A stretch of 64,000 nt of DNA from Mucidula mucida (taxonomy: Eukaryota; Basidiomycota; Agaricomycetes; Agaricales; Physalacriaceae). Position numbers and translations under genes: made by a program. Shown here piece by piece: positions 11,119 to 49,704 of this stretch (position 1 is its first letter; each line of letters starts with the position of its first letter). The notes under the pieces were generated by a model. The model was not told the origin of the DNA and did not search any database. It worked only from the letters and a program-made list of their open reading frames with translations. The stretch is from contig JADNYV010000178.1 of the NCBI GenBank assembly GCA_015501055.1, positions 1 to 64,000 on the forward strand. Reading direction: 5' to 3'.

Positions 11119-11593
11119 CTACTTTAGCGTGTAACAACCCTCTGCGACGACTGACGTTGGATTCCGTATCAACGGCGACGGCAGGTACGTGTCAAGACAA
11201 CCTCGGTTTTTCAGCTTCTTAGGCCGCCCTGATCTCGCAACACACTTGACCGCTCGCACCACGGGCACGTCCGTGTCAGGTGGGTAGGGATTGGACGCGA
11301 AGGGGGATGAAAAAGGCCGTGTGATGGGTTGAAGCTTTTTCACAAGTGGACGTGTGAAGGGCTGAAGCTGTTTCTTCAGCAACTGCTTGAATGACACTGT
11401 AATCCGTGATCAGGAGGTGGCAAATGGAATCGAGGAAAGAAGACATACACTTTGGTTTGCCATATATGTCTTCCATGACGGCCGGGGAGTCCCAGTCGAC
11501 ATAGGCTGCGCGAGTTTCGGGAGCTTGTTCTATGAAGATTGTAGGTGACACGGGAGCGCCGGGATACATAGGTTTAAAACCGGTTAATCTCAT
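11119..11593 (-). pseudogene. Small basic GRPKK family, copy A (truncated by a stop)
   Basis: Exon 1 is 11449-11593 and exon 2 runs 11396 down to 11119, with the family's usual intron between (donor GTATGT). The protein is identical to copy B up to the GCYTLK block, where TAG replaces a Glu codon. The remaining codons down to 11046 still read as the family C-terminus (FFVEKKEKV), so the stop is new. The promoter, like that of copy B, lacks the TATAAAA box seen in other copies. The sequence is a perfect inverted copy of B over about 600 bp. Confidence 0.8.
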
Positions 11594-12587
11594 GGTTGGT
11601 TCGAGTGCGAGTGATGTGATAGTGGTGTGAGATGTACATTGTGAAGTTTTAGGACGGAATAGTGTAGAGCACTGAGACTGTCGGAGAACACGTCTCGAGA
11701 AGAGAGGAGCCATTCCTGTGCCGACTCAGATGGTCGTGAAGAGGGGCCATGTCTGGAATACGCATAACCCTTTGCCCAGGCAAGTCGGTGAGATCCAGCG
11801 ACGCCATCCCCGCCCAAACTCCTGCTCATACAAATCGGCAACGTACTCAGCCATGTCATTCATTCAGTATGTAGAGGTCGAAACAATGATATCTAGAATG
11901 CCAAAGGCCAGCTTTCAAGGTGTTCCAAAGGCCGAGGGCAGTACAGCTTTAATAAACGCCGGAATGAGTAGTCTCTCCGAACGAAGACATGGAGAGCTGA
12001 GACAGTGCGAGTGTGAGAACGTCAACGATCGCCGTCAGCGATCTGCGTCCGAGAGCAGTGCAGGTTGACCATCGGACGCTCTCTTACTATGTGCATATAT
12101 GGAGAGTGAGACCAGGTTAAGACCCTCAGGAAAGTCGTGATGAAGAGCAGAGCAAGAAAAGAAAGCGTAGATGTTTGCTGGTCTATATTGACCGCTTGAT
12201 CGTTGACTTTCTCACGCTTCTCTCTGTCTCGGCTCGTCATCGTGTCTTCGCGTACCGTCTTCGGCGTCTAAATTCCACTTGCTCTCGGACTTTGCGCCCT
12301 CAGTAAAATTGACCTTTCGCTTCTCTGATAACATTAGTATCTCATAGGGGGGCTTGATTGTCTACACTAGGCTCGAGCGACACGTCTCAGCTATGGACCT
12401 CACCAAACTGCCTGGGCAGAGGGTTATGCATATTCTAGACATGACCCCCATCTGAGTCGACACAGGAATGGCTCCTCTCTTCTCGAGACGTGTTCTCCGA
12501 CAGTCTCAGTGCTCTACACTATTCCGTCCTAAAACTTCACAATGTACATCTCACACCACTATCACATCACTCGCACTCGAACCAACC
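11594..12587. promoter_or_regulatory. Bidirectional spacer of pair 1 (A/B)
   Basis: About 1 kb separates the start codons of the head-to-head copies A and B. It carries the family's conserved spacer blocks, including repeats of GAGCTGAGACAG and CTGCTCTCGGAC and the promoter-proximal block GGAATGGCTCCTCTCTTCTC at both ends in opposite orientation. Where the other pairs have CCGACTATAAAA before the start, this pair has CACTATTCCG, so the TATA box is lost on both sides. Confidence 0.6.
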
Positions 12588-13131
12588 ATGAGATTAACCG
12601 GTTTTAAACCTATGTATCCCGGCGCTCCCGTGTCACCTACAATCTTCATAGAACAAGCTCCCGAAACTCGCGCAGCCTATGTCGACTGGGACTCCCCGGC
12701 CGTCATGGAAGACATATATGGCAAACCAAAGTGTATGTCTTCTTTCCTCGATTCCATTTGCCACCTCCTGATCACGGATTACAGTGTCATTCAAGCAGTT
12801 GCTGAAGAAACAGCTTCAGCCCTTCACACGTCCACTTGTGAAAAAGCTTCAACCCATCACACGGCCTTTTTCATCCCCCTTCGCGTCCAATCCCTACCCA
12901 CCTGACACGGACGTGCCCGTGGTGCGAGCGGTCAAGTGTGTTGCGAGATCAGGGCGGCCTAAGAAGCTGAAAAACCGAGGTTGTCTTGACACGTACCTGC
13001 CGTCGCCGTTGATACGGAATCCAACGTCAGTCGTCGCAGAGGGTTGTTACACGCTAAAGGAGACAAGGAAGGGATTTTTTGTTGAGAAGAAGGAGAAGGT
13101 TAACCGCATTGTGCCGTCGCGCAGCTTCTGA
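12588..13131 (+). CDS. Small basic GRPKK family, copy B
   Basis: Exons 12588-12732 and 12785-13131 give 163 aa. I do not recognise this family. Exon 1 encodes MRLTGFKPMYPG...YVDWDSPAVMEDIYGKP. Exon 2 starts LSFKQLLKKQLQPFTRPL and carries two tandem copies of a K-K-x-L-x-P-(I/F)-T-x-P motif. It goes on with NPYPPDTDVPVVRA, an AT-hook-like GRPKK core, PSPLIRNPTSVVAEGCYTL and a Lys-rich C-terminus ending RIVPSRSF. No signal peptide or membrane segment; the protein is strongly basic and probably partly disordered. Compared with its relatives it lacks a few residues after GRPKK. It is divergently paired with A and appears intact, but its TATA box is missing. Confidence 0.75.
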
Positions 13132-14366
13132 TCTTTCATGAAAAGTCGAGTATTTATTCACGTGTCATGTTCTATACCTACCAACCCACCTTGATATCTT
13201 CCAATGTGGCTGATCTAACTCTTTGTTAAACTACCTCTCAGTAAAAGACCACGTACGTGGCCTCGATTCAAGTGTTTCGGTACCGCTGTGCTCAAGCCAT
13301 TGCCAATATCCAAGGAATCAGGCAACCCTCCAGCACAGACGACGCGTCAAACACAACGCCATGCCATCGGACGAACTGTACCCCTGCAGAACGTTCACAC
13401 ACATCAACAACTCTTCGCTCCTAATTCATTTAACCATCACATGCAAATGTCCTCTGTGGCTTCAACGACTGAATCACTTGCGGAAGTGTCGCAATACAAT
13501 GACCTCTGCAACGTCTTTCATCTGGGCCCGTGTCCTTTGACCTTTAAAGCTGTAACGGTATCCGACTTACTCCTGCATGGTGCTCAGCTGTTGCGTGTCA
13601 AATCTGAACGTGTCCGCCTCTGGAAATTGGTGCAGTAAGATTAGCGCATTTAGGATGTCAAGTCCCGGGCGGGGATGTCGACCTGGATTTCCTCCAGTCG
13701 CGCACGGCCCTACGGTTCTGGATAATGTCTATCTGAGAGTGACATTCTTCGTTGTAACAAAGAATGCAAACATGTTTCCTGAGCGCAGGTTCATCATCTC
13801 TGGTCCCGTCGAACTGGGGCTCGGATTAGATGAACTGACGGACAAGCTATTCTTTATGAACAATGGATTCGGAGATCACAAACAATCTCAACACCTCGCA
13901 CCAGCGCTCTTCGCCAAGACTCTGTGATATGTCACGGATCTTCTAGTAGACCGCTGGGCAGTTTTCAAGATCTTCACGCGGCATGCTACGTAGGAAACAA
14001 ATGCATCGCTCCCTTCTTTTTGCCAGGAACCCAGCGCCACAGATTTATTACTCGCAGTCAGGTCTGGGCAACGATAGTAGGCCTAAAGACACTGAAGGCC
14101 GTGAAGCACCTCCAGGCTACAGATTGATGCACCCACGCTACATACGCGCTTACTTGACGGTCGAAATGATCCTCAGATTATTGCATTCTTAGACAAGGAA
14201 GGACTGAAGAATTGTTGCTACGCAACCATAATACAAGTTATGAGTCTGTACAGCGACTGTAAAGGCAATGTCATCAATGGTTTTCGACGAGATGTTTGTA
14301 TCAGCTTGATAAATGAAGAGACATAGATTGACTGGGTATCATAAACAATGCAGATTGTGTGCTTCG
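13132..14366. repeat. Inter-unit spacer between pairs 1 and 2, duplicated
   Basis: The first 350 bp are the conserved 3' flank of the PSRSF-type genes (also at 16500, 24600 and, inverted, near 56300). The segment 13741-14190 recurs almost unchanged at 17139-17588, an offset of 3,398 bp. Open frames inside it are shared only because the DNA is nearly identical. No protein is recognised. Confidence 0.75.
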
Positions 14367-14942
14367 TCATAAAGATGCTCGCTTGCGCGGACTACTCTTC
14401 GTAACCTTCTTTCCCATAATCCTCCTCGGCTTCTGTTCAACGAAGTATCCCGTCGTCGTCTCCACCAACGTATAGCACCCCTCTGGGACGATCGACGTGG
14501 GGTCTCGTACCAACGGCGACGGCGGGTACATGTCAAGACCTTCGTTTTTCATTAATTGCAACTTCTTGGGCCGTCCTAGTCTGACGACTGCCTTGGCCGC
14601 TCGCACAGCGGGCACGTCCGTGTACTCTGGGTATGGGTTGGACGTTGATACGACGAAGGGGGATAATAACGGCCGTGTGATGGGTTCCAGCTTTTTGACG
14701 AGTGGGCGTGTGATGGGCTCAAGCTGCTTCTTAAGCGATTGCTTGAATGACACTACGATCCGATATCAGGAGCCGCCAATGCAAATGGAGGAAGACATAC
14801 AATGGGGTTTGCCATCAATATCTTGAATGGCCGGGGAGTCGCAGTTGACGTACGCGGCAGCGCGGATTTCGGGACCTTCCACGAAAACTGAAGGTAACGT
14901 GGGAGCGCCGGGATACATGGGTTTGAAACCGGTTAATCTCAT
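14367..14942 (-). CDS. Small basic GRPKK family, copy C (RASL type)
   Basis: Exon 1 is 14801-14942 and exon 2 is 14367-14752, joined across a 48-nt GTATGT...TAG intron, 175 aa. It belongs to the second subtype: KKQLEPITRPLVKKLEPITRP doubled motif, an insert PFVVSTSNPYP, AAKAVVRLGRPKKLQLMKNEG, PPSPLVRDPTSIVPEGCYTL and a basic end KRASL. TATAAAAA lies upstream on the minus strand (15008-15015). Start ATG is in the same context as in all copies. The reading frame is intact. Function unknown; basic charge plus the GRPKK core allow a guess at nucleic-acid binding, nothing more. Confidence 0.75.
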
Positions 14943-15949
14943 GGTTAGTTAGAGTGCGGGAGATGTGATGTCGGTGTAGGATGCGTATTGTTAAGTTCTG
15001 GGAAGGGTTTTTATAGTCGGTAGAGCACTGAGACTGTCGGAGAACACGTCTCGAGAAGAGAGGAGCCATTCCTGTGTCGACTCAGATGGGGGTCATGTCT
15101 AGAATATGCATAACCCTCTGCCCAGGCAGTTTGGTGAGGTCCATAGCTGAGACGTGTCGCTCGAGCCTAGTGTAGACAATCAAGCCCCCCTATGAGATAC
15201 TAATGTTATCAGAGAAGCGAAAGGTCAATTTTACTGAGGGCGCAAAGTCCGAGAGCAAGTGGAATTTAGACGCCGGAGAGTACGCGAAGACATGATAACG
15301 AGCTGAGACAGAGAGAGCGTGAGAAACTCAACGATCGAGCGGTCAATATGGACCAGCAAACATCCACGCTTCTCTTTCTTGCTCTGTTCTTCATCACGAC
15401 TTTCCTGAGGGTCTAAACATGGTCTCACTCCCCATATATGCACATAGTAAGAGAGCGTCCGATGTTCAACCTGCACTGCTCTCGGACACAGATCGCTGAC
15501 GGCGATCGTTGACGTTCTCACACTCGCACTGTCTCAGCTCTCCATGTCTTCATTCGGAGAGACTGCTCATTCCGGCGTTTATGAAATCTGCACTGCTCTC
15601 GGACTTTGGAACGTCTTGAAAGCTGGCCTTTGGCATCCCTAGATATCATTGCTTTGACCTCTACATTCTGAATGAACGACATCGGCTGGGTATGTTGCCA
15701 ATTTGCATGAGCAGGCATTTGCCCGGAGAAGGCGTCGCTGGATCTCACCGCCTTGCCTGGGCAGAGGGTTATGCGTATTCCAGACATGGCCCCTCTTCAC
15801 AACTATCTGAGTCGGCACAGGAATGGCTCCTCTCTTCTCGAGACGTGTCCTCCGACAGTCTCAGTGCTCTACCGACTATAAAAACCCTTCCCAAATTTTG
15901 ATAATATACAATTTACTTCACTATCACATCACTCGCAGTTTATCTAACC
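14943..15949. promoter_or_regulatory. Bidirectional palindromic spacer of pair 2 (C/D)
   Basis: Shared promoter region of C and D. TATA boxes face outward at 15008-15015 (minus) and 15877-15884 (plus), each 66-73 nt from its ATG. The middle is an imperfect inverted repeat: 15300-15336 (GAGCTGAGACAG...CAACGATC) pairs with 15504-15540 (GATCGTTGAC...CTGTCTCAGCTC). The same arms are found in the spacers of the other pairs. Confidence 0.7.
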
Positions 15950-16499
15950 ATGAAATTGACCGGATTCAAACCTATGATCCCTGGCACTCGCATGTCACCT
16001 ACATTCTTCATGGAAGCTCCCGAAATCCGCGCAGCCTATGTCGACTGGGACTCCCCGGCCGTCATGGAAGACATATATGGCAAACCAAAGTGTATGTGCT
16101 CTTTCCTCGATTTCATTTGCCACCTTCTGATTACGGATTACAGTGTCATTCACGCAGTCGCTGAAGAAACAGCTTCAGCCCTTCACATGTCCACTCGTGA
16201 AAAAGCTTCAACCCATCACATGGCCATTTACATCCCCATCCTCGTCCAATCCCTATCCACCTGACACGGACGTGCCCGTGGTGCGAGCGGCCAAGTGTGT
16301 TGCGAGATTAGGGCGACCTAAGAAGGTCAAGTTGATGAAGAAGCAAGGATGTCTCGACGAGTACCCGCCGTCACCTTTGATACGCAATCCAACGTCAGTC
16401 GTCACAGAGGGGTGCTATACATTAAGGGAGACGAGGAAGGGATATTTTGTTGAGAAGAAGGAGAAGGTTAAGCGCATTGTGCCGTCGCGCAGCTTCTGA
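15950..16499 (+). CDS. Small basic GRPKK family, copy D (PSRSF type)
   Basis: Exons 15950-16091 and 16144-16499 give 165 aa. Exon 1 reads MKLTGFKPMIPGTRMSP, then AAYVDWDSPAVMEDIYGKPK. Exon 2 reads LSFTQSLKKQLQPFTCPLVK (Cys and Trp replace Arg in the two repeat motifs), SNPYPPDTDVPVVRA, ARLGRPKKVKLMKKQGCLDE and an RIVPSRSF end. TATAAAAA at 15877. The frame and splice sites are intact. It forms a divergent pair with C. Confidence 0.75.
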
Positions 16500-17764
16500 C
16501 CTCACGAGTATTCATGTGATGTGTCATGTTCTATACCTACTACTAATGCAACTCGATATCTTCTAATGTGGCAAATCAGACTTTTTGCTAAACTGTCTCT
16601 CAGTAAAAGGACACGTATGCGGTCCTGATTCTGCTGTTTTAGTACAGGTGTGCTCAAGCCATTGACATTATCCCAGAAATCAGCCAACCCTCCAGCGCAG
16701 ACAACGCGTCAAGCACACCGCCACCGGCGACATGCCATCAGACGAATCATAGCCCTGCAGAACTTTCACACACATTAGCAACTCTTTGCTCCTTGTTCCC
16801 TTAACCATCACATACATAACGTCCTACGGTGGCTTCATGACTGATTTACTTTGGGAAGTGTCGCGATACGACTATCTCTGCAACGTCTTTCATCAGGGCC
16901 TGTGTCCTTTGACCTTTAAAGCTGTAACGGTATCCGACTTAGATACCTTTACAGTAGTCGTGCTCTCCTGCATGGTGCTCAGCTGTAGCGTGTTAAGCCT
17001 AACCGTGTCCGTCTCTAGAGATTGGTGCATTAAGATTGGCGCATCTAGGATGTCAAGTCCCGGGCGAGGATGACGGCCTGGATGCCCTCCAGTCGCGCAC
17101 GGCCCTACGGTTCTGCATAATGTCTATCTGAGAGGAATGACATCCTTCGTTGTAACAAAGAATGCAAACATGTTTCCTGAGCGCAGGTTCATCATCTCTG
17201 GTCCCGTCGAACTGGGGCTCGGATTAGATGAACTGACGGACAAGCTATTCTTTATGAACAATGGATTCGGAGATCACAAACAATCTCAACACCTCGCACC
17301 AGCGCTCTTCGCCAAGACTCTGTGATATGTCACGGATCTTCTAGTAGACCGCTGGGCAGTTTTCAAGATCTTCACGCGGCATGCTACGTAGGAAACAAAT
17401 GCATCGCTCCCTTCTTTTTGCCAGGAACCCAGCGCCACAGATTTATTACTCGCAGTCAGGTCTGGGCAACGATAGTAGGCCTAAAGACACTGAAGGCCGT
17501 GAAGCACCTCCAGGCTACAGATTGATGCACCCACGTTACATACGCGCTTACTTGACGGTCGAAATGATCCTCAGATTATTGCATTCTTAGACAAGGAAGG
17601 ACTGAAGCATTGCTGCTACGCAACTACAATACAAGTTATGAGTCTGGACAGCAACTGTAACGGCAACGCTATCGATGGTTTTCAACGAGATGTTTGTATC
17701 AGCTTGATAAATGAAGAGACATAGATTGACTAGGTATCATAAACAATGCAGATGGTGTGCTTCG
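16500..17764. repeat. Inter-unit spacer between pairs 2 and 3, tandem copy of 13132-14366
   Basis: Nearly identical to the spacer one unit upstream from 17139 to 17590, less so before that. The arrangement gives a tandem unit period of about 3.4 kb. No recognised protein or RNA gene. Confidence 0.75.
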
Positions 17765-18327
17765 TCATAAAGATGCTCGCTGGCGCAGACTGCTCTTCGA
17801 AGGCCTCTTGCCCCTGATCTTCCTCGGCTTCTGCTCAACAAAGTACCCTTTCCTCGTCTCCACTAACGTATAGCACCCCTCTGGGACGAGCGACGTGGGG
17901 TTTCGTACCAAAGGCAACGGCGGGTACATGTCAAGACCTTCGTTTTTCATTAATTGCAACTTCTTGGGCCGTCCTAGTCTGACGACTGCCTTGGCCGCTC
18001 GCACAGCGGGCAACGTCCGTGTCGGCTGGGTATGGGTTGGACGTTGACACGACGAAGGGGGGTAATAACGGCCGTGTAATGGGTTCAAGCTTTTTGACGA
18101 GTGGGCGTGTGATGGGCTCAAGCTGCTTCTTGAGCGATTGCTTAAGTGACACTACGATCCGATATTAGTAGCCGCCAATGTAACTGGAGGAAAGAAGACA
18201 TATAATGGGTTTTGTCATTACTATGTTTGACGGCCGCGGTCTCGCAGTTGACATAGGCTGCGCGACCTTCTACGTAAGGTGACGTGCAAACATTGGTGTT
18301 CATAGGTTTCAATCCGGTCAATTTCAT
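17765..18327 (-). pseudogene. Small basic GRPKK family, copy E (RASL type, broken)
   Basis: Exon 1 is read from 18327 (MKLTGLKPMNTN...AVKHSNDKTH) and exon 2 from about 18150 down to 17765. Three defects are visible. The intron donor GTATGT has become ATATGT near 18202. One extra A near 18013 shifts the frame inside ADTDVPAVRAAK. The upstream TATA box is changed to TATAGAT. The rest of exon 2 is very close to copies C and G, so the decay is recent. Confidence 0.8.
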
Positions 18328-19369
18328 GGTTGAATGATGTGCGAGTGATGTGATAGTGGCGAAAGATGTACATTATGAAGTTCTGGGAAGGGTATCTATA
18401 GCCGCTAGAGTGCTGAGACTGTCGGAGAACACATCTCGAGAAGAGAGGAGCCATTCCTGTGCCGACTCAGATAGTCGTGAAGAGGGGCCATGTCTACAAT
18501 GCACATAAACCTTTGCCCAGGCGAGTCGGTGCAAGTGGGTGACATCCATAGCCTAAGACAAGTTGCTCAAGCCTAGTGCAGACATCCAAGCCCCCCTATG
18601 AGATACTAATGTTATCAGAGAAGCGAAAGGTCAGTTTTACTGAGGTTGCAAAGTCCGAGAGCAAGTGGAATTTAGACGCCGGAGAGAGTACGCGAAGACA
18701 CGATGACGAGCTGAGACAAAGAGAGCGTGAGAAACTTAACGATCGAGCGGTAATATGGGCCAGCAAACATCCACGCTTTCTTTTCTTGCTCTGGCTTTTA
18801 TCATGACTTTTGTCTGGATGGTCTTTTGAGCATGGTCTCACTCTCCATATATCTACACCGTGAGATGGCGTCCGACATTCGACCTGCACTGCTCTCGGAG
18901 GCAGACTGCTGAGTCGCTCACTGCGATCGTTGATGTTGTCACACTCGCACTGTCTCAGCACGTCATGTCTTCATTCGGAGAGACTGCTCATTCCGGCGTT
19001 TATGAAATCTGCACTGCTCTCGGACTTTGGAACGTCTTGAAAGCTGGCCTTTGGCATCTCTAGATATCATTGTTTCAACCTCTACTTCCTGACTGAACGA
19101 CATGGCTGGGTACGTTGCCGGTTTGCATGAGCAGTCATTTGGGCGCAGAAGGCGTCGCTGGATCTCATCGACTTGCCTGGGCAGAGGGTTATGCGGATTC
19201 CAGACATGGCCCCTCTTCACAACTATCTGAGTCGGCACAGGAATGGCTCCTCTCTTCTCAAGACGTGTCCTCCGACAGTCTCAGTGCTCTACCGACTATA
19301 AAAACCCTTCCCAAATTTTGACAATATATAATTTACATCTCTATCACATCACTGGCAGTTTATCTAACC
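18328..19369. promoter_or_regulatory. Bidirectional spacer of pair 3 (E/F)
   Basis: Same block order as the pair 2 spacer, including GAGCTGAGACAAAGAGAGCG and its inverted partner. TATAAAAA at 19297-19304 serves copy F. The E side is degraded. Confidence 0.65.
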
Positions 19370-19925
19370 ATGAAATTGACCGGATTCAAACCTATGATCC
19401 CTGGCACTCGCATGTCACCTACATTCTTCATGGAAGCCCCCGAAATCCGCGCAGCCTATGTCGACTGGGACTCCCCAGCCGTCATGGAAGACATATATGG
19501 CAAACCAAAGTGTATGTGCTCTTTCCTCGATTTCATTTGCCACCTCCTGATCATGGATTACAGTGTCATTCAAGCAGTCGCTCAAGAAGCAGCTTGAGCC
19601 CATCACATGTCCACTAGTGAAAAAGCTCCAACCCATCACATGGCCATTTACATCCCCCTCCTCGTCCAATCCCTATCCACCTGACACGGACGTGCCCGTG
19701 GTGCGAGCGGCCAAGTGTGTCGCCAGACTAGGGCGGCCTAAGAAGGTCAAGTTGATGAAGAAACAAGGATGTCTTGACACGTACCCGCCGTCACCTTTGC
19801 TACGCAATCCCACGTCAGTCGTCGCAGAGGGGTGTTACACGCTAAAGGAGACAAGGAAGGGCTATTTTGTTGAGAAGAAGGAGAAGGTCAAGCGCTTGTG
19901 CCATCGCGCAGCTTCTGATCTTTGA
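19370..19925 (+). CDS. Small basic GRPKK family, copy F (PSRSF type with shifted C-terminus)
   Basis: Exons 19370-19511 and 19564-19925, 167 aa. Almost identical to D through GCYTLKETRKGYFVEKKEK. A 1-nt deletion near 19894 then replaces the family ending RIVPSRSF by LCHRAASDL. Everything before is intact, so a protein with an altered last nine residues is expected. TATA box and splice sites are normal. Confidence 0.7.
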
Positions 19926-20558
19926 TGAAGAGTCTAATATCCATGTGTCATGTTTTATACCTACCAATCGAACTATTAATCTCGTAATCTAAATCTACCA
20001 ATCAAATGCTTCTTCAGAACACTCTCTTTAAAACTCGTACTCTACGATTTCGTGACTGCTCTTCGAGAACTGGCAGTCGTCTGACACTGTTGCGATATGG
20101 TCCATGCTATCTGTTGTCATTGTCTGTGCCTTCTTCTCTTATGGGGTGAGGTCCTGGGTTTTGTTATTTCTTGTCCGTGGGCTCTGGTATTATACCTGCG
20201 AGTTGATTTTCTCTTAACCCTTGTAGCACTCAGATTCCTTGACCACCCTCTCATTCGCTCAGCTCCCTCTTCCGTTGCCTGCTATGTCCTCCATAGTAGC
20301 ACTTTGCAGCTCGTTCAACGTTATGTCGTCCTAACTTTGTTGGCACTGCGTAGGGCACTTCATGTTGCCCTTCAAGTTGTAACGGCCATCGAGGCCATAT
20401 AGACTACTGAAAGGAGCCTCGAACTTTGCAGACTTCGCGTGAGCGCATTAACCTTCTAGCATCACGTCAAGTGGCCTCGTGTCATCGTCTCATGCTCCTT
20501 ACGTCACGAAGCAAGTTATATATAAAGGCAAGTCAAAATGCCTTCCCACCGTTGTAAA
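19926..20558. other. 3' flank of F and promoter of the AtuA relic
   Basis: The first 100 bp are family 3' flank. The rest is unrecognised; a hydrophobic frame at 20097-20402 has no splice or family support. TATATAAA at 20517-20524 lies about 40 nt before the AtuA-gene ATG. Confidence 0.5.
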
Positions 20559-22165
20559 ATGGCTGCTCCAAGAGCCGACCGGCGACCTATCCGAGTAGGC
20601 CGCTCATTATGGTTGTTCGTCTGCTCAAACGCACTGTAGATTGGCGCGTTCAGCGGATACGCTGGTGACAGATAGTGCGTACGGTTCTTCATTGCCGACC
20701 ATCTTTTTTTAGCTTTTAAATTCAGCGACGGTCTTCTGCGCCAAGCGACGCACGGAAATGCCGATATTCTCTTTGGCGACTATCTTGCGGAAGTAAATAT
20801 CGCTCGTCTTGCGCTGGACAGATGCGAGACCCGACGAAGGGATACGAGATGCAGTTCTTTCGATAGTTTAGCGATGCTGTGGACGTGATTGTTGAGAAGC
20901 GTCTTCGAGTGGGCGCCAAATCACCTTGTGGAGATTTCGTTCTCATTTCCTGCTCAGGTCATCACGAATGCTGGAGGATTGAATCCTTCTGCTCTCGCTG
21001 ACGCTTGCGACAAGCTGCTCAATCTCGAGGATATCAAGAAATGAAGGTCAGTCCCTCCCTCGGCTCACTATTCAGCGAACGACGAGGTTGAGCTCCCCTC
21101 AGGTGGCGGCGGTAACTGGAGACGACGTTCTCCCGTTCATCTCCAGCCTCACTACAGACGGCGAGCGCTTTCCGCACTTGGAAGACCAAGACCACTGCAT
21201 CGTGGGGTCCATTCTGCCAATGCGTATTGTGGTGCCCGAGCATCGTTGGGGCACTCGAGGCGGGTGCGGATATTATTATCGTTAGTGCCACGCTTTTCCA
21301 TGAAGTGAGCTTCTGCCACTGATCCTCAGACTGGCCGCGTTACGGACGCTTCACCTGTGATCGCCGCTTCGCAATGGTGGCATGGATGGTCATGGAATGC
21401 ATACGACCGCCTTACTGGTACGCTTCTGGCTGGACATTCTATTGTAGGTGTCCAGTGTAGATCAATGGAGCGCGGTCACTAATGAGGTATTATAGGAATG
21501 CGGCGCGTATTGTACCGGGGGTAATTTCTCGGGCTTCAAGTCTCTGGGGGCTGAACGATGCATTGATCTGGCTTTTCCCATCGCAGAAGTATCTGTCGAT
21601 GGGACTTTCGTCATTACTCGACCGGAAGAAGGCGACTTCAATGGGGTGGTCACTATCGATACTGTTCGATCTCAAATATTATACGAGTTGCAAGGGAATG
21701 TCGGTATACCCCAACAGTTCTACGAGGTCTGATACTGACGCGCGATATTGTTAGATATACCTCAATCCCGATGTAGTCTGCTGTAACTGTTACAGGACCA
21801 AGTCAAACCACTGCTCCATTACGACAGTCGAATTACGACTCCGCCGGTAAAGGGCAAGTCGTTCCAAATATTGCTCTTGAGACTGTTCGCGGGCCTCTGG
21901 GATGGATCGTTCACGCACGCTCTGGGTATGTTCTCTGATCCTCCCTTATCGTCTTATTCTGACAAGGATAAGGGTGGTAGTGAGTTGAAGCACCGACGAA
22001 TGAGAACAATCTTATTGAGCGCGTATAGATGTCAAAGTTGGTTTTTTCGTGCGCCACGAAGACGAGTACCCGTGGCTCAGGTCCCTTTTATCGCTCAAGA
22101 AGATGATTGAACTTCTTTCTGAGGAGTTCGTGGGTAATAGGATTGAACGTGTCGAGTCGGAACTA
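20559..22165 (+). pseudogene. AtuA-domain (DUF1446) protein, decayed and 3'-truncated
   Basis: Start MAAPRADRRPIR, intron, then IGAFSGYAGDR, YDGLLRQATHGNADILFGDY and LAEVNIARLALD, VITNAGGLNPSALADACDKL, VAAVTGDDVLPFISSL, TGRVTDASPVIAASQW, GAYCTGGNFSGFKSLGAE, FPIAEVSVDGTFVITRP, IDTVRSQILYELQGN, YLNPDVV, and the C-terminal LGWIVHARSG and VGFFVRHEDEYPWLRSLLS. This is the acyclic-terpene-utilisation AtuA family (a bacterial terpene-degradation protein whose fungal role is unknown). Several introns still read correctly. Defects: a frameshift near 20830, a stop in FFR*FSD near 20870, a frameshift near 21245, and loss of the 3' end where family-unit DNA begins near 22178. Confidence 0.85.
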
Positions 22166-22295
22166 TATGAATTTGCATAGCAACTGTAAAGGCAACATTA
22201 TCAATGGTTTTCATCTGTGTAAATGTTTGTATAGCTGATAAATGAAGAGAAATAGATTGACTAGGTATCATAAACAATGCACATGGTGTGCTTCG

Positions 22296-22839
22296 TCATA
22301 AAGATGCTCGCTGGCGCAGACTGCTCTTCGAAGGCCTCTTGCCCCTGATCTTCCTCGGCTTCTGCTCAACAAAGTACCCTTTCCTCGTCTCCACTAACGT
22401 ATAGCACCCCTCTGGGACGAGCGACGTGGGGTTTCGTACCAAAGGCGACGGCGGGTACATGTCAAGACCTTCGTTTTTCATTAATTGCAACTTCTTGGGC
22501 CGTCCTAGTCTGGCGACTGCCTTGGCCGCTCGCACAGCGGGCACGTCCGTGTCCGCTGGGTATGGGTTGGACGTTGACACGACGAAGGGGGGTAATAACG
22601 GCCGTGTAATGGGTTCAAGCTTTTTGACGAGTGGGTGTGTGATGGGCTCAAGCTGCTTCTTGAGCGATTGCTTGAATGACACTACGATCCAATATCAGAA
22701 GCCGCCAATGTAGATGGAGGAAAGATGACATACGATGGGTTTTGTCATTACTATGTTTGACGGCCGCGGAATGGCGGTCGACACAGGCTGCGCGACCTTC
22801 CACGAGGCCCGAAGGTGACGTGGGAGTGTTGGCGTTCAT
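22296..22839 (-). pseudogene. Small basic GRPKK family, copy G (RASL type, start deleted)
   Basis: Exon 2 (about 22681 down to 22296) is intact and nearly identical to E and C. In exon 1 the usual MKLTGFKPM start is lost: compared with E, a deletion of roughly 30 bp joins the CCGGT of the KLTG region directly to the GATAGTGG of the 5' leader. The next in-frame ATG (22839) would give MNANTPTSPSG...AVKHSNDKTH, so a shortened protein is possible. A TATAAAG box remains upstream on the minus strand. Confidence 0.7.
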
Positions 22840-24035
22840 AGGTTTGAAGCCGGTGATAGTGGTGTAAGTTGTATGTTATCAAGTTTTGGGACGGGTCTTT
22901 ATAATCAGTAGAGAACTGAGACTGTCGGTGAAAACGTCTAGAGAAGAGAGGAGCCATTCCTGTGCCGACTCAGATGGTCGTGAAGAGGGGCCATGTCTGG
23001 AATACGCATAACCTCTGCCCAGGTAAGTCGGTGAGATCCATATGGGTCGCTCGAGGCTAGTGTAGACATCCAAGCCATAACATGTAGTACTCAGGTTAAT
23101 ACAACCGCTAAAATGTCAACCTGTCCGCATATCGCAAAGTCCAAGAGCAGTAGAATTTAGACGCCATGATGGGTTGAGACAGATAGAGCGTGAGAAACTC
23201 AACGATCGAGCGGTCAACATGGACCAGCAAACATCCACGCTTTCTTTTCTTGCTCTGCTCTCCATCACGACTTTCCTGAGGGTCTTAACCTGGTCTCACT
23301 CTCTATATGTGCACATAGTAAGAGAGCCTCCGATGTTCACTCTGCACTGCTCTCGGAGGCAGACTGCTGAGTCGCTCACTGCGATTGTTGACGTTCTCAC
23401 ACTCGCACTGTCTCAGCTCGTCATGTCTTCAATCGGAGAGACTACTTCTTCCGGAGTTTATGAAAGCTGCACTGCCTTCAAGCTATGCAACACCATCAAA
23501 ACTGACCTTTTGGCAATCCGGGCCTAAATTGCTGCCTGATGCGACTTTGACGTATACACTTTAAAGAACGACATGTCTGGGTATACTGCCGATTTGCACC
23601 GACTAGCTGGAATTTGGGCGGAGAGACGTGGCCGGTCTTCACGACAAACCGCCATCGTTGATTGTCTCATGCTCCCTCTGTCTTACATAGCTCGTCGTTC
23701 ATCAACTACTCTCTCCGACGTCTAATTACCATTGCTCTTGGACTTTGCGACATACGGAAAATTGAGTATCTAGTCTTCATACTGATATCAGTACTACTGA
23801 TTGGCTTGGACCTCTACGCTCTGCAGCGAGCCTATGAATCTCACCCGACTTGCCTGGGCAGAGGGTTATGCATATTCAGACATGACCCCCATCTGAGTCG
23901 ACACAGGAATGGCTCCGCTCTTCTCGAGACGTGTTCTCCGACAAGTCTCAGTGCTCTACCGACTATAAAAACCCTTCCAAAACTTGATAATATGCATCTA
24001 ACATCTCTATCTCATCACTCGCACTCTAAGCAACC
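22840..24035. promoter_or_regulatory. Bidirectional spacer of pair 4 (G/H)
   Basis: Contains the conserved palindromic blocks plus an extra partial copy of the spacer (around 23640-23770), making it the longest on this side. TATAAAAA at 23964-23971 serves copy H. Confidence 0.6.
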
Positions 24036-24588
24036 ATGAGATTAACCGGGTTTAAATCTATGTATCCCGGCGCTCCCGTGATACCTTCGCTCTACATAGA
24101 AGAAGCTCCCGAAATCCGCGCAGCCTATGTCGACTGGGACTCCCCAGCCGTCATGGAAGACATATATGGCAAACCCCAATGTATGTCTTCTTTCCTCGTT
24201 GTCATTTGGCACTTTCTGATTACCCTTCGCAGTATCATTCACACAGTCGCTGAAGAAGCAGCTGGAGACCATCACACGTCCATTAGCTAAAAAGCTCCAA
24301 CCCATCACATGGCCATTCACGTCCCCCTTCGCGTCCAATCCCTATCCACCGGACACGGACGTGCCCGTGGTGCGAGCGGCCAAGTGTGTCGCCAGACTAG
24401 GGCGGCCTAAGAAGGTCAAGTTGATGAAGAAGCAAGGATGTCTCGACGAGTACCCGCCGTCACCTTTGATTCGGAATCCGACGTCAGTCGTCGCAGAGGG
24501 GTGTTACACATTAAAGGAGACGAGGAAGGGTTTCTTTGTCGAGAAGAAGGAGAAGGTTAAGCGCATTGTGCCGTCGCGCAGCTTCTGA
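24036..24588 (+). CDS. Small basic GRPKK family, copy H (PSRSF type)
   Basis: Exons 24036-24180 and 24233-24588, 166 aa. Starts MRLTGFKSMYPGAPVIPSLY. Exon 2 has SLKKQLETITRPLAKKLQPI, so the first repeat motif has Thr for Pro. ARLGRPKKVKLMKKQG and the RIVPSRSF end are present. Intact frame, donor, acceptor and TATA box. Closest to copy I, 32 kb away. Confidence 0.75.
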
Positions 24589-28071: not shown

Positions 28072-28888
<817 letters not shown>

Positions 28889-30288: not shown

Positions 30289-33193
30289 CTAACTTGAAGT
30301 AGGCCAAGGAGCGGGCTCTCCTAGAATAATAGTACACGCGTTCCACTCCATCCTGTCCCGGCAATCTTTGTTAGTGAACATCTTCAATCGCAGCGTCTCA
30401 TCCAAGGATACCGCCCCCTTGTCCGTCTGCACGACTTTCCCGTTGAAAAAGTTCTCTAAAGGGAACGGCAAATCAGTACGATTGGAGGCCTGGCACCAGT
30501 CGATGATACCATCCAATGTGGCGCGGTGTGAATCCCACGAGGAAGAGTCTTTGGGGCATAACTTCGGCAAATGGTCGCTAGCGACCATTTGCTGGAGTCT
30601 CCAATCAAAAGCAATCATGCTGAACGTGATGATGAAATTTCTGGGTTGTTGCAAGTAGTCCAAAACTTTGAGCGCTGATGCGGGATCCAATGCTTGTAGA
30701 CCCTCGATAAAGGCTAAGATTGGTAGAAGGTAGGTAAGATGTGGGTCCACAATGTATCTTTCCGCAAGCATCGACAACCATCCCCCGTCGATAAAGGCTT
30801 GATACATTCCTTCATTACCAACTTCAAGTGCGGTTTCCATCAGGTTCAACGTGGAGCGTATCAGAGGACTTAGCCCTTTGGCAGACCTGACATCCTGTAA
30901 CAGACGGTGGCATGACGGGAACACAAATTCAGGCTGGCGTGACGATACCAATCTCCTCAATAAAACACTGATGGCCGAGAGCGTCTGGTCAAACAGATCA
31001 CGGAGTTCTGGATGCTGCAGGCCTGCTGCATCATAGTCACAGATCGACGTATCGTCAACAGTGGCGCGAAGAAGTTCGAGTATGGGAGCCAAAAAATAGG
31101 GATGTTCCTCAGCGATGGTGGCGTACTCCTCCTTCAGGCACAGCAGGACCTTTAAAAGGAGCTCTAAATGGCGACAACTTCCTGCATCTCTATATGATGC
31201 CCAATATTCATCTGAAAGATAACGCAGCGCAAATTGAGCTGCCTTGTAGAGCAGGCGATAGCATGACGGCAATGTGGCAGGGAGATCATCATTGAGGGAC
31301 GAGAGCATGTCCAAGAGACGGTCTGGTACGGACATTGAGATGTCGCCCAAATCGCAGGCGAGAGCTTCATGTAATGTCACTGTACAACTATGACCTGTCC
31401 TGTGCCGAATTGACACGTGATCAGATTCGTCACGGGCTTGGGAAGCAGGCAGAAAGAGAGAGACAATATGAGCGTAGTCCGGATTGTAAAGATCTCCAGG
31501 ACTGTTGAATTGGAAACAATGAGACCGAACTCCCAGTGCAGATTTCACAAGTCCTTCCCATACGAAAGGATGAAGTTTCAGTTCATTGAAAGTGCAGAAA
31601 AACTTTCGAAGGTCTCTACTTTGGTTGTACCAATCCCCATCGCTTGCGACCCAAGCAGTCGCCATGCAACGAGGTTCATCAAAATCCAAATGATTCACAA
31701 GATGTGAGTGAATGTTGTACCAATAATGACAAAAAAAGTGTGATCGAATGAGCCGTTCCCGGACACTGTCGCACTCAATCGCGCCAAGTCGGGAATATCC
31801 AAGAGCATCATAGAGACGTTGGTGCACGTCTTGAATATCTTTTCGACCCTTCCAAGTTGCCTGCGCATACGCCTGAACATCAGGCGGTAGCCCCCGATTG
31901 CTTGTACAACGAGGCTATGAACAGTGGGATTGGACGAGTTGTTGAACAACCAGTCAAGCGCATCAACGGAGACCTTGCCATAATCCGATTCAACCGTTAT
32001 AGTTTCGAGCTGGTTTAGCGATTTTGGTGGGTGCTCTGGCCTTTGAAGACGAGCACGGTCGATCGCGATAGCTAGGATATCAAGATCGAGGTCGTCATCT
32101 TGACGCACTGAAAGTATATGTCGAGTAAGGCTGGATATAAAATGCCTGATAACCAGGCAAGTGTGAAAGATAAAGTCCGTCAATGGGGTTTGATACGGAC
32201 ATTGGGGGAAGAGGATCGGCAGAGCACTGCTAACGAGGTATAGTAGACAGAGGACAACCGTGACTACGCCAACCGCACAAGCCAGTGATGTGCGCAGAGG
32301 GATGAAGAAGAGCATCAGGCCCACAAGGAACAGGACAAGCGATATATGCATAATGATGGGGAATAATCCGATGATGACGTTCACGCGCCATTTCTGGAGA
32401 CCATCGAATCGGTACTGACGAAGATGGCTGCGCGCTCCCGGTGTGCCAGATGGTATAGATGTGTAATGGTGGAACCACTGCTTAACCAGAACAGCCGAAA
32501 GAGCCACGACAAGGCTCATCGTGAGACTGACCACCCAGAGGCCGTTCACCCAGACCGTGATGGAGTCTGCTCGGAAAGTCTGGAGAGGATTGATGGACGG
32601 AGCAGTTATGTTGAGTCGGGACGAGCCGCCGTCGGCTATGGAGAGCTGAACGGAGACAAGGTCGTGTAGGAGAATCGCAGACATCGCGGTGTAGTCTGCC
32701 TGTAGACTTTGCGAGACCTGCACCAGGAACGAAGTTACGACGGCAGAGAAAAGACCAGCCTAAGATAGTATATATGTCTGAGTAAAGGCATAGCGCTCAC
32801 ACGAACACTCACAAATACGAGCATGACATCGAGACCGTCGCGGGCTTGTCCGACATACACCGTATCGTACGCGGCAGCCTCCTCGTTGTAGACACGCCAT
32901 ATCCTCGCGTTGGGAGCGGTCTCCTCGCCATACGGGTCCTCGGGGAGCCGCTTCTCATAGTCGTCGTTGAAGACAACGTTCTGAGGGGGCTGATAGTGGT
33001 TGGCATCCTGTCTCAGACCGAAGACGGTCTTCCCCGGCTGCGCTGCCGAAGCCTGGGGGGCGACACCAGTTGGAAGAGGCGCTTGCGCACCGGGCGTCTG
33101 TACAGCTGATGCAGATGGCCCCGGTTCTGAAGGAGGCGCCGCTGCGCTGTCGATGGGAGGTGGTACGGCGGTGGAGCCTTCGGGCTCTGACAT
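30289..33193 (-). CDS. DUF6535 multi-pass membrane protein, copy 1 (one frameshift)
   Basis: Exon 1 is 32813-33193 (127 codons), then a 53-nt intron, then one long exon from 32759 to 30289. The N-terminus is Pro/Ala-rich. The DUF6535 domain follows, spanning the intron: IWRVYNEEAAAYDTVYV, GLDVMLVF, AGLFSAVVTSFLVQVSQSLQ, WVNGLWVVSLTMSLVVALSA and LVKQWFHHYTS. The two hydrophobic pairs suggest four transmembrane helices. The C-terminal 500 residues are soluble and helical, with no recognised domain. This family is common in Agaricomycetes and has no known function. The frame breaks at about 31891: a run of 5 C, where copy 2 has 6 C, so the N- and C-terminal halves are in different frames. A single-base homopolymer change or sequencing error explains it. 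Confidence 0.82.
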
Positions 33194-34724
33194 CGAGACT
33201 TTGTATGGGAATGGAGTGGGCTCTGGGAGGTAGGCAGATAACTTGTAAGTTAGATGCAGCTGCACTGCCTACGAGCTGTGGCAAATGGTGGGGATGAATG
33301 AGGTTAGATGCATTAACACAGTACAGCATCCAACAACCAATGAGGCGGCTTGACTGGTGGACCGGAGTCTGACAGCTGGAATGGCACGACTGCCAAACGC
33401 GCAGGTAACGAGGCCAATCCTATTGATAGCTCAGCCTTGCAGCCGACATCAAGATTTCGCTCGAGTTTTGTAGACAAGTCGGTGCGACTGAAAGAATTAC
33501 GAACTCCTTCATCCAATTCAATCAAGCATTCCCAGCCATACGAACATATTCAGCCGCCATCTGCTATGCGTGATTAAGTCTTAACAATCAATAACCAAAG
33601 GGAGCACAACGTACAAAATTCTGAGCCAATACACGAAGCCTAACATCGCAGAGCTCGAACCCCGTAGTGGTGATTGGGGTCAAAAGAATGGCTGTACTTC
33701 ACCCACTCGTCTCCTCCCTGAATGCTCGGCATAGCATGTTATCCTCGTCCAAAAATCTAATAATGTCTCGTACCCATGCAGATACTAGTCGATCCAGGCG
33801 TGGACGCGTCGTCTAGATTCTAGACAATAGCTGATTCGAAGCGTCAATGGGCAAGAGACAGATCAGTAACGCGAATGTTTCTTTATGTCCCAGAGTCCAA
33901 GAGCACGCGCAGCCGTACTGTAACATTTTGAACGCCGTGAAGCTAAGCCGGGTAGCGAGTAGGAGGAGACTATACTTACATGGTAGACAGGACACGAGTA
34001 TAGCAAGAGGGTACTACGCGTCGAAAATGGCGGTGAGCTTACCGTTGTCACTGTCAAGCACGTTGAGCCAGCTTCCGAGTTGGTGTTAGTCTTTGACGTA
34101 CCTTTGCCATGACACCGCCAGCCAGATGGTCTTCTTTGAATGCTAGCAAGATAAGAGTAGGCCGTGGAGCTACCTACCCAAGCATTGTAATCCTGGTACC
34201 TCGGGAGGTTTCAGAAACAATATCACTGTATTTAAAGGCGCCGTGTGGGAGGAAGTGTGCCTGAAGCGAAAAACTCTGGCGGCATTTCGGGCGTAAACAG
34301 TCTTTAAACAGTACAGACGAAGATGTCAAAGTCCAAGCAGAAAGCCGCTTTGGACTCAGAGCGAGTACCCGTTCAAGAAAGCGATGGCCGCCGAGGTCGG
34401 GAAGGCGAAAGGATGAGGCATTAGGCTAAGAGAGCGAGTCGTAATACTAAGAAAGTTACAAGACCTGTTGCGTTCACGTGTCCTCAATTTTGAAATCAAA
34501 AATTTACCACGCTTGGTTTCCCTCCTGCCGCATGAGCAGTCACTAGTCACTGTCCGTCTCCGTTCTCGCTGTTCGAAACCGAGAACTAGGCGTGTGATCT
34601 AGTCTAGTTTCATTCGCATGGCCGAGTACGGAGCTCAACTTTTGCGTCATGTGCATCTCATGTGACCCGGTCGGCTTACCTTAGCATCAAAAATTAAATT
34701 AGCGCGTCGCCGCCTTTCTTTCCA
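33194..34724. other. Intergenic, nothing recognised
   Basis: 5' flank of the DUF6535 gene (first 250 bp resemble 51622-51870). No convincing gene after that; a 33-codon frame at 34323 has no support. Confidence 0.5.
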
Positions 34725-35879: not shown

Positions 35880-36062
35880 GTCGCAATATTGTCAGAAGCT
35901 GCTCGTCGGCACACTCGACAATCTGTTCAACCTTTTTCGCTTTGGTTTTACGCTTCTTCTCCCGGGTCCTTCCCGCGAGCGTGTAGCTTCCTTCTGGTAT
36001 GACCAACATTGGATTCCGCGCCAAGGGCGATGGCGTGCTGATAGTGTAGGAACGTACTACCG
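35880..36062 (-). pseudogene. Distant relic of the small basic GRPKK family
   Basis: On the minus strand the reading SPLARNPMLVIPEGSYTL, followed by a Lys/Arg-rich stretch (TREKKRKTKAKKVEQIV), aligns with the family block SPLVRNPTSLVPEGCYTL and its basic tail. No exon 1, GRPKK block or repeat motif is visible. It is the most diverged member and the only one found outside the divergent pairs. Confidence 0.55.
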
Positions 36063-36700
36063 ATAGGTAGGAAGGACATCTTGAGGTATAAAGACCTACT
36101 GGTAAACTGAACTACGCCATTGACATTTGTTTGACCGCAAAGTGAAGGCTTTGACCAAGTAGATCCATCTTTACGTTTCGCTGATTTACATCTCAGAATT
36201 GTGTTAATCGACGCGCCAGGTCTGGCGACCGTTAAGTGTTCACCCCCTTCGTTTTCAATTCCAGCTTTTCACGAATAGTCAAGAAAGTGATCCAACTGGG
36301 GAGCCCCGAGAAGTTTGCGATGAGTCGAGTTAATAGAAAACGGAGGCATGCTGACTTGCCGGACGGCTCTCCTACGTTTGAGGCCAACACTATCGCGCAC
36401 CCCTACATGACGTATGCCTGCACTGGCGCGACTATCTTACCATCTTCGAGGGCAGCCACGGCCAACCCAGGTCCTCTCGCAGGGTCTTACTGGATTCGTC
36501 ACCCTTGGCAGAAGGGTTAAAGTATCATATATCAACGTGCAAAGAGGTGTAATCATAATTCACGAAAATACAGGCACATTCCCCGCCTCAGTGACTCGTA
36601 CGTTTTTCCGAGTATCTGAATGTCCCGTAAGCCGTCAGTCCGTCACAGATAAAGGTACTGGAGACGTCCTTTCACGGTTCCAGAGGAGCATCTCTCTTTG
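36063..36700. other. Intergenic with a shared duplicated piece
   Basis: About 45 bp at 36075-36118 recur inverted at about 47190-47240. The rest resembles the decayed 3' region of the microprotein/DUF6535 arrangement. No gene is recognised. Confidence 0.45.
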
Positions 36701-37755
36701 TTAGCAATCCCACTCTGAGCAGCCCGAAGCACGGTCTCCTAAAAGTATCGTGCGTGCGGCCCACTGCACCTTCCTCCGGTATGCATCGTCAGTTAACATC
36801 GCTTGCAGCGCCTCGTCGAGGTACACTGCCCCCTTACGTGTATGCACAACTTTCCCGTCGAGAAAGTTCTCTACTGGGAACGGCAAATCAGTATCTTCGC
36901 ACCAGTCGATGATACCGTCCAATGTGTGGCGGTGTTTATACCACGAGACAGAGTCTATGGGGCATAACGTGAGCAAAAGTCCGACATTGAGATGCCCGGA
37001 AAGTGAAGCAAGTGCGATGAATGTGATGAAGAAATTTCTGGGTTGTTGCAGATAGTCGAAACACTCGAGCGCTGATGCGGAACCCAATGCGTGTAGACCA
37101 TGGACAAAGGCACAAATCGGTTCGATGCACCAATCTGCGGAGTTCGCAACATATCTCTCCGAAAGCATCCACAGCCATCCCTCGTCGATAAAGACTCGAT
37201 ACATTGCTTCATTACCACTTTGAAATGAAATTTCCATCAGGTCCAAGGTCCAGAAAGCGGAGCGTGTCAAAGGACTTTGCCCTTCAGACAAGTAATTTGC
37301 AAGCACCTGTAAGAGACGGTGGAATAACGGAAACACGAATTCGGGCGGGCATGATGGGAAGACTTTACTTGATAGACGCATGATGGCCATCAGAGATTTC
37401 TCAAGCAGGTACTCGAGTTCTGAATGAGGCGGTAGGCCTGCTGCGGGACAGTCAAAGATCAAAGTATCATCAATAATGGCACGAAGAAGTTCGAGCATGG
37501 GTGCCAAAAATCAGGGATGCTGCACAAGGATGGTTTCGTACTCCCAAGACAAGCGAAACAAGACATCTGAAAGGAGCGCTAAACGGCGACAACTTCCTGA
37601 ATCATCACAAATATCATCCGGAAGATACCACAGCGCGAATTTAGGTGCCTTGTAGAGTAGTCGATACGGTGATGGCAATATTGCGGGGAGATCATCATCA
37701 AAGAATGGGAGCAGGTTCAAGAGACAGTGTTGTACGGACAGTGAAATCTTGTCCG
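36701..37755 (-). pseudogene. DUF6535-protein C-terminal fragment (copy 3)
   Basis: Reads as the soluble C-terminal half of the two larger copies (LPSPYRLLYKAPKFALWYLP, LLRAIIDDTLIFD, FDYLQQPRNFFITF, LDGIIDWCEDTDLPFPVENF). A TGA replaces the Tyr codon in HPYFLAP near 37514. The 5' part with all membrane helices is missing; homology ends at about 37755, where unrelated DNA leading into the MFS pseudogene starts. The site CTTGTAGA at 37649 is empty of the transposon found in copy 2. Confidence 0.85.
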
Positions 37756-44993: not shown

Positions 44994-45515
44994 ATGCATA
45001 TTTTCGTAAAGACGTTTGTGGATTTGCTATTCTGCTCTGCTCGCTGCTGACGATAACGACGACAGCCTTACGGACCATACCACTTTAGGTCGAGTCTTCG
45101 GACACCACCGACGATGTCGAGACCAAAATCCAGGACAAGGAGGGCATTCTCCCCGACCAGCAGCGTCTGATCTTTGCTATAAAGCAGTTCGAGGACGGCC
45201 GTACCCTCAGCGACCTCAACGATCAGAAGGAGTCTACACTCCATCTCTCGTTGCGTCTCCGTGGTGGTGCCAAGAAGCGCAAGAAGGAGACCTATAACGT
45301 CAAGATGGCCATCTTGAAGTACTCCAAGGGCGACTCGGATGGCAAGATCAAGCGCCTCCGTCGGTGCCGATATCTTCGTAAGTCAAAGTTCTTTCCTTCG
45401 TCTGACCTTTATCTAATCTTTTCGCTAGATGGCCTTCCACCAGGACCGCCAGTAGTGCGGCACGTGCGGCTCGACCTACACCTTCCAGCCCGGGAACAAG
45501 CCTCCTGTAGTCTAA
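44994..45515 (+). pseudogene. Ubiquitin-S27a fusion pseudogene
   Basis: A decayed copy of 28253-28888. Intron 1 and intron 3 are still present, so it arose by DNA duplication, not from mRNA. Disruptions: a deletion in the LTGKTITLE region that shifts the frame, loss of intron 2 with about 90 bp, and CAG-TAG-TGC in place of QYCGK. About 110 bp of the parental promoter is included and abuts the ATG1 fragment. Confidence 0.92.
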
Positions 45516-47516: not shown

Positions 47517-48479
47517 TCATAGGGGTAAAGGTAAATACTCTAAAACAGGCGGAGGAATTTCTTTTCCCAACATTATTGTACGTGCGGCCCACACCACCCT
47601 CCTCCGGTAGCGCTCATGAGCAAACATCTCTCGCAACGCCTCATCCAAGGATACCGCCCCCTTATTCGTTTGCACAACTTTCCCATTGAAGAAGTTCTCT
47701 AAGGGGAGCGGCAAATCATCGTGATTGGAGGCTTGGCACCAGTCAATGATACTATCCAATGTGGCGCGGTGTGTATCCCACGAGGAAGAGTCTTTGGGGC
47801 ATAACTTCAGTAAATGGTCGCTGTTGGGTCTCCACTCAGCAATCATGCTGAATGTGATGATGAAATTTCTGGGTTGTTGCAAGTAGTCCAAAACTTTGAG
47901 CGCTGATGCGGGATCCAATGCTTGTAGACCCTCGATACAGGCTAAGATTGGTTTTAGGTAGGTAAGAATCGGGTCCGCAATGAATCTTTCCACAAGCATC
48001 CACAACCATCCCCCGTCGATAAAGGCTTGATACATTGCTTCGTTACCGCTTTCAAGTGCGGTTTCCATCAGGTACATGATTTCGAGAGCAGAGGGTGTGA
48101 GAGGACCTTGCACTTCTGACAAGTAATGTGCAGGCACCTGTAACAGACGGTGGCATGACGGTAACACGAGTTCAGGCTGGCGTGACAAGACCATTGTCCT
48201 CAATAAAACACTGATGGCGTAGAGCGACTTGTCAAGCAGATGACGGAGTCCTGGACCTGCTGCTGCATCATACTCGCAGACTGAAGTATCGTCGATGATG
48301 GCGCGAAGAAGTTCGAGTACGGAAGCCAAAAAATAGGGATGCTTCGCAAGGATGGTGTCGTACTCCACATACAGGCACCGCAGGACCTCTGAAAGGAGTT
48401 CCAAATGGCGACAACTTGCCGCATCTGTATATGGCGCCCAAATTTCATCTGAAACATTATGTATCGCAAATTTGGTTGC

Positions 48480-48487
48480 CTTGTAGA
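48480..48487. repeat. Target site duplication, left copy
   Basis: CTTGTAGA directly flanks the left terminal repeat; the right copy is at 49697-49704. The paralogous empty sites have a single copy, at 31243-31250 in DUF6535 copy 1 and 37649-37656 in the fragment. Confidence 0.93.
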
Positions 48488-49696: not shown

Positions 49697-49704
49697 CTTG
49701 TAGA
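49697..49704. repeat. Target site duplication, right copy
   Basis: CTTGTAGA, identical to 48480-48487. Confidence 0.93.

Follow-up and report, generated by a model that had tools for sequence, protein, structure and literature searches.

Head-to-head pairs of small basic genes recur along one contig of the mushroom Mucidula mucida, which raises two questions: do they represent a genuine protein family multiplied as a paired unit, and do the two protein subtypes that they encode act together, as the original prediction from this DNA proposed? The window considered here is the whole stretch of 64,000 nucleotides analysed (positions 1 to 64,000 of contig JADNYV010000178.1, assembly GCA_015501055.1; the contig, of 73.7 kb, is C136 below), and the five predicted pairs were all found in it, including the distant one at 56428-58733. 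We conclude that they belong to a real, constrained, lineage-restricted gene family without annotation that has been amplified as a divergent unit, with the layout and the promoter as firm findings.

Genomic census of the family

We identified 16 head-to-head pairs (32 genes) and one lone exon 2 in the 59.9 Mb assembly (1047 contigs) by combining a protein query with a DNA search; the single protein query gave 40 exon-level matches, one of which (on C338, 33%) is a gene of a sister subfamily described below. The pairs are located on C136 (n = 6), C194 (n = 4), C871 (n = 4), C321 (n = 1), and C942 (n = 1), all 16 are divergent, and 32 of the 33 copies sit in pairs, in agreement with the proposed amplification as fixed divergent pairs. 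Some pairs are alleles (C136 and C194 are 94.8-99.0% identical in the pieces compared, C871 and C942 99.1%), so there are fewer than 16 distinct loci. The inverted similarity of the window is far beyond chance, with 50 inverted pairs in 18 kb, of which the 25 listed are 72-100% complementary over 144-692 nucleotides (nt). The lone exon 2 on C671 (L010:2395-2697) is a 100-codon frame without exon 1; it matches the pair 5 region at 90% along ~380 bases and adjoins the end of a frame that by eye resembles a carbohydrate-active enzyme.

The genes have two exons and a single intron of 47-52 nt. Reading frames, as judged by eye, are open in 25 of the 32 genes, and the seven open frames among the ten in the window encode 163-175 amino acids, the range predicted for intact copies. 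A midpoint-rooted tree of the 32 rows resolved two clades with 100/100 support each, P (ending in PSRSF, n = 23) and R (RASL-like, n = 9), which substantiates the two subtypes originally distinguished by their ends.

Pair 1 consists of two P-type genes, a minus-strand copy with the 3' flank class 'a' (see below; 11119-11593, exon 2 at 11056) broken by an in-frame TAG after 140 amino acids, and an open plus-strand copy of 163 amino acids with flank class 'b' (12588-13131, exon 2 at 12784). Pairs 2 to 4 carry R on the minus strand and P with the 'b' flank on the plus strand, as had been described. Both genes of pair 2 are open (R ending in RASL, 14367-14942, exon 2 at 14370, 175 amino acids; P, 15950-16499, exon 2 at 16146, 165 amino acids). 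The R gene of pair 3 is broken by a donor change from GT to AT and a frameshift (17765-18327, exon 2 at 17768) and lies beside an open P gene of 167 amino acids with a frameshifted tail (19370-19925, exon 2 at 19563), while the R gene of pair 4 has its start codon deleted (22296-22860, upper end approximate; exon 2 at 22299) and lies beside an open P gene of 166 amino acids (24036-24588, exon 2 at 24235). Pair 5 is inverted, with an open P gene ('b' flank, 56428-56980, exon 2 at 56434, 166 amino acids) on the minus strand and an open R gene (58178-58733, exon 2 at 58356, 167 amino acids) on the plus strand. The described subtype layout thus requires correction for pair 1, which is P/P. A sixth pair, also P/P, is located just beyond the window at C136:65.5-67.6 kb.

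Selection on the two subtypes

Both P and R are protein-coding and under purifying selection. Ratios of nonsynonymous to synonymous differences (pN/pS, NG86 proportions) were calculated from open copies only, using 11 of the 20 open P copies after near-identical ones had been dropped and all five open R copies, and amounted to 0.241 for P-P, 0.365 for R-R, and 0.445 for P-R comparisons; with all 20 open P copies the P-P value was 0.234. The upper ends of the codon bootstrap were 0.33 (P-P) and 0.49 (R-R), so that the intervals within both subtypes stay below 0.5, below the value of 1 set in advance as the mark of constraint, and not near it. Codon position 3 is the most variable. Constraint is weaker in exon 1 than in exon 2 for P-P, R-R, and P-R comparisons, with overlapping intervals.

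Promoter element

Most of the genes share a promoter layout that is new here, GACWGTCTC followed by 14 nt, a TATA box, and then ~69 nt to the ATG, and this architecture is common to the family and its diverged sister subfamily. In the window, GACAGTCTC-N14-TATA is present upstream of the R gene (15012-15038, minus strand) and the P gene (15854-15880, plus) of pair 2, the R gene (18397-18423, minus) and the P gene (19274-19300, plus) of pair 3, the R gene of pair 4 (22900-22926, minus), and the P gene (57050-57076, minus) and the R gene (58082-58108, plus) of pair 5. Genome-wide, GACWGTCTC-N14-TATA has 37 matches, which belong to 25 family genes, eight positions upstream of sister genes in the fetched loci, three probable sister copies (C338:25887, C1010:10069, and C1015:54113, assigned from the element sequence alone), and one position elsewhere (C115); the reversed-pattern control has one. 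A 32-nt promoter piece, with up to three mismatches allowed, has 31 genomic occurrences, all of them at family arms (31 of 32), and its reversed control has none.

In the ~140 alignment columns that end at the TATA box, the majority base has a mean frequency of 92-98% across the 32 arms, and the last 70 columns of this upstream block differ by ~3% in P-P, R-R, and P-R comparisons alike, as against a synonymous proportion (pS) of 0.43 and an intron difference of 32% between P and R. Recent copies share the promoter by descent, and the weight therefore rests on the same spacing recurring across subfamilies that are only ~24-32% identical; in the sister genes the palindrome is fuller, GAGACWGTCTC. 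The original prediction had assumed one shared promoter per pair, which is unsupported because most genes have a TATA element of their own, and the two TATA boxes are ~0.8-1.1 kb apart in pairs where both were found. An N-terminal MAPLFSRRVLRQ segment that could be read from the conserved upstream block was rejected as part of the protein, as this block is situated before the TATA box and shows 1-nt and ~10-nt insertions or deletions in otherwise open genes.

Pair composition and the relation of P and R

Nine of the 16 pairs are P/R and seven are P/P without an R gene. P genes are open in 20 of 23 cases and R genes in five of nine; the broken copies comprise four R and three P genes. A two-component system, in which P and R proteins cooperate and are kept coordinated by their divergent pairing, would account for the nine P/R pairs, for the retention of R with purifying selection in its five open copies, and for the promoter layout that P and R genes have in common. 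We nevertheless regard it as unlikely: seven pairs lack R, the four broken R genes lie next to an open partner frame, and the proteins found in Hymenopellis are of a single mixed type (three of seven compared). P and R seem not to be obligate partners. The occurrence of P/P pairs, together with the decay seen among R genes, disfavours a strict two-component system, whereas a looser, genome-wide partnership could still hold because five intact R genes remain.

Relatives in Hymenopellis and a sister subfamily

Three protein searches returned 21, 23, and 37 proteins, with ~7,990 candidates scored in each of the second and third. The named homologues came from M. mucida and Hymenopellis radicata only, alongside seven proteins without a name from short contigs; distant relatives with few exact words in common could be missed. 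The best match was 99% identical to an M. mucida CPB85DRAFT model. Seven core proteins were found in Hymenopellis, on at least six contigs. In the three of these seven that were compared, exon 1 resembles P more (63-64% versus 49-51% for R) and exon 2 resembles R more (61-73% versus 56-68% for P). Consensus columns in which Hymenopellis agrees with one subtype alone number eight for P and none for R in exon 1, and four for P and eight for R in exon 2, which suggests complementary divergence of P and R in Mucidula, on small numbers and without a statistical test.

A sister subfamily (P0024-P0035) is kept in both genera, in M. mucida on C129, C146, C338, and C1015 and in Hymenopellis as P0025 and P0026. 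It is 24-32% identical to the core family in the alignment and shares with it the ...SLVPEEC...FVE region, the promoter layout, and, as judged from the sequence by eye, intron phase and place. Its proteins differ in being longer (~215-253 amino acids), with an extra N-terminal exon containing a predicted helix, and in having neither GRPKK nor the doubled motif, and the fetched M. mucida copies are not in close head-to-head pairs. The AlphaFold2 model of a sister protein has a single helix at residues 15-40 and a mean predicted local distance difference test score (pLDDT) of 46.5. Four sister copies on C129 (L023-L026) lie on alternating strands in surroundings that are 92-99.9% identical; by this layout the sister subfamily is likewise multiplied in inverted blocks.

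Protein features and putative function

The GRPKK core was claimed for every copy and is present in all 25 open copies of the genome. The first unit of the doubled motif, KKxLxP(I/F)TxP, fits 24 of these 25; the repeat itself is real, an 11-residue tandem repeat, and its second unit reads KKLxPITxP in the alignment, without the first x of the proposed consensus. Four M. mucida proteins have isoelectric points of 9.8-10.8, proline contents of 10-13%, and masses of 18.7-19.5 kDa. AlphaFold2 predicts a beta hairpin at residues 140-145/148-153 (pLDDT ~59-66), which corresponds to the CYTL.E..GYFVE region kept in Hymenopellis.

Eight proteins of both subfamilies had no Pfam match above the cut-off, the gene products had nothing above the cut-off in NCBIfam, a PDB sequence search gave no credible match, and none of the papers listed by a literature search dealt with this family; the original description as an unrecognised family is thus upheld, and no profile of a transposon-encoded protein was matched. 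Sub-threshold matches to DUF6918 (E 0.017), Mannitol_dh_C, PspA, and three PDB chains (E 1.5) were taken as chance. We take the GRPKK core to resemble an AT-hook, a likeness without profile support. Our tentative best guess, doubtful as it is, is a putative nuclear accessory protein that binds nucleic acid or chromatin.

Unit structure, flanks, and pair number

The 3' flanks (~350 bases after the stop) fall into three classes, R (nine genes), 'a' (n = 7), and 'b' (n = 16), with no cross-match at E 1e-3 among the nine best hits per row. Every pair contains exactly one 'b' gene and either an 'a' gene (seven pairs) or an R gene (nine pairs), and P/P pairs are thus b+a. Arm identity in exons is 92-100% in P/P pairs and 66-78% in P/R pairs; the arms of pair 1 are 98.8% identical overall, and those of C871:85k are 99-100% identical from upstream through the intron and 92% in exon 2. 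This similarity in tracts looks like gene conversion, although homogenisation is not universal, as the pair 6 'b' gene is nearest to the pair 5 'b' gene and not to its own partner.

The spacer between pairs 3 and 4 (19960-22200) also occurs beside pairs on C194, C871, and C321 at 90-93% identity, and the pairs were therefore copied along with their surroundings. A mobile element of the non-autonomous kind, in which long inverted arms carry two passenger frames, would fit the inverted arms and the dispersal of copies over six contigs. We consider it very unlikely: outer flanks and spacers are common to several copies, the arm ends fall into three flank classes instead of having fixed termini (no systematic search for target-site duplications was made), and Pfam and NCBIfam scans of the gene products found no transposase profile. 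Another spacer is repeated between pairs at 13140-14300, 16505-17698, and 55507-56161, the latter two being 88% and 73% identical to the first; short pieces of it are located elsewhere on C871, and it contains a 116-codon frame.

Comparison of the flanks between contigs showed that F1 (C136:9.0-11.0 kb) is 98-100% identical to C321 per 250-base window, F2 is 90-100% identical between C194 and C871 (C194:6.7-10.1 kb; 96% over C194:4.0-8.3 kb), S1 (C136 from 21.4 kb) is 98-100% identical to C194 in most windows (two at 89 and 93%), and S2 is 94-99% identical between C321 and C871. The contigs combine them as F1-three pairs-S1 (C136), F1-one pair-S2 (C321), F2-one pair-S1 (C194), and F2-two pairs-S2 (C871). 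The flanks have been exchanged at the arrays, either by rearrangement between nuclei or by assembly mis-join. In either case, if the contigs are otherwise right, pair number differs at F1 (three versus one) and at F2 (two versus one). A real inversion or translocation separating two nuclei would agree with the occurrence of all four F/S combinations and with the high flank identity, and we consider it less likely than not: C136:15.8-20.0 kb is 96-100% identical to C871 in 16 of 17 windows (one at 92%), exactly where an assembler could cross over, and PMC8480192 names several methods, among which the one used for this strain could not be singled out.

Copy-number differences between flank-sharing contigs, together with lineage restriction, arm homogenisation, and the paired layout, would also be expected of a selfish family resembling spore killers or meiotic drivers, multicopy, young, and varying in copy number between nuclei. 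Such an origin appears very unlikely given the moderate and stable constraint (pN/pS 0.24-0.37), the retention of the sister subfamily in both genera, and the lack of Pfam or NCBIfam matches that resemble known drivers. A more elaborate account, in which a putative chromatin-associated orphan family has palindromic pairs with a family-private promoter that serve as ectopic-recombination sites, exchanging flanks and pair number between the nuclei of the dikaryon, while P and R act as genome-wide partners dividing an ancestral role, strikes us as distinctly improbable.

Preferred explanation

We favour, with a probability of about 0.6 as a whole, a lineage-restricted coding family of Mucidula and Hymenopellis that is organised in divergent units, has its own promoter, and has a putative nuclear role; its genomic part is very likely correct. 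The multiplied unit is the two divergent genes, a P gene of class 'b' with an R or a P 'a' partner, copied together with flanking DNA. Multiplication probably took place by unequal exchange or segmental duplication. Gene conversion would homogenise the arms, copies may be maintained for dosage, and divergence would be partly complementary, mainly in exon 2 for P and mainly in exon 1 for R. The predicted product is a small, basic protein of ~19 kDa, rich in proline and largely disordered, that has the GRPKK core and the putative beta hairpin.

Several observations weigh against this explanation. Seven of the 32 copies are broken, and the pN/pS interval of P-R exon 1 extends to 1.15. Seven of the 32 arms misfit the exact promoter pattern, which the other 25 have (the TATA is absent from both arms of pair 1, 1 nt is inserted at C136:24235, and ~10 nt are deleted in four arms), and the low divergence of the promoter could derive partly from homogenisation rather than selection. 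With regard to the nuclear role, the AlphaFold2 model of the core protein is poor (mean pLDDT 53.0, no residue above 70), one Hymenopellis protein (P0011) has GQPKK in place of GRPKK, the sister subfamily has not kept this core, and the Pfam AT-hook profile, whose sensitivity is low because the motif is short, had no match at E up to 10 in the eight proteins of both subfamilies.

Other features of the window

A Hymenopellis core protein matches very weakly at 35917-36042 (minus strand, E 0.02) and 36266-36403 (plus strand, E 0.07); these two matches are divergent too, have counterparts at C194:25.8-26.2 kb, and are possibly relics of another pair. Other minus-strand genes at 31695-33268, 49670-51714, 47517-48578, and 36701-37510 are related; 49670-51217 matches DUF6535 (Pfam, E 6.9e-43), 47520-48578 has no Pfam match, and the region at 31.2-33.4 kb shares 88% identity with that at 49.7-51.8 kb. 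Ubiquitin-fusion-like frames are present at 28072-28716 and 45089-45550 (Pfam ubiquitin, E 1.4e-29 and 4.8e-14, respectively). The second is shorter and diverged and adjoins the duplicated DUF6535 blocks, so that a larger old duplication is likely.

Significance and comparison with known systems

A lineage of white-rot mushrooms thereby gains a constrained, unannotated protein family, along with a sister subfamily that has this promoter layout too. With its fixed unit, homogenised arms, and varying pair numbers, the family offers a compact natural example of divergent-pair multiplication and subtype splitting in fungi, and, if the flank exchange is true, the arrays would also shape chromosome structure between nuclei.

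Three known systems invite comparison. AT-hook proteins are likewise basic and disordered with a GRP core flanked by lysines; the present family differs in having no Pfam AT-hook match and a single core that is not kept in the sister subfamily. Homogenised palindromic multicopy genes, such as those of Y-chromosome palindromes, share the inverted near-identical arms seen in P/P pairs, whereas the P/R arms here are less similar and the units measure only ~2-2.6 kb. The HD1/HD2 mating-type pairs of Agaricomycetes are also divergent and occur in several copies per cluster, whereas the family described here has no homeodomain and both members of each pair derive from one family.

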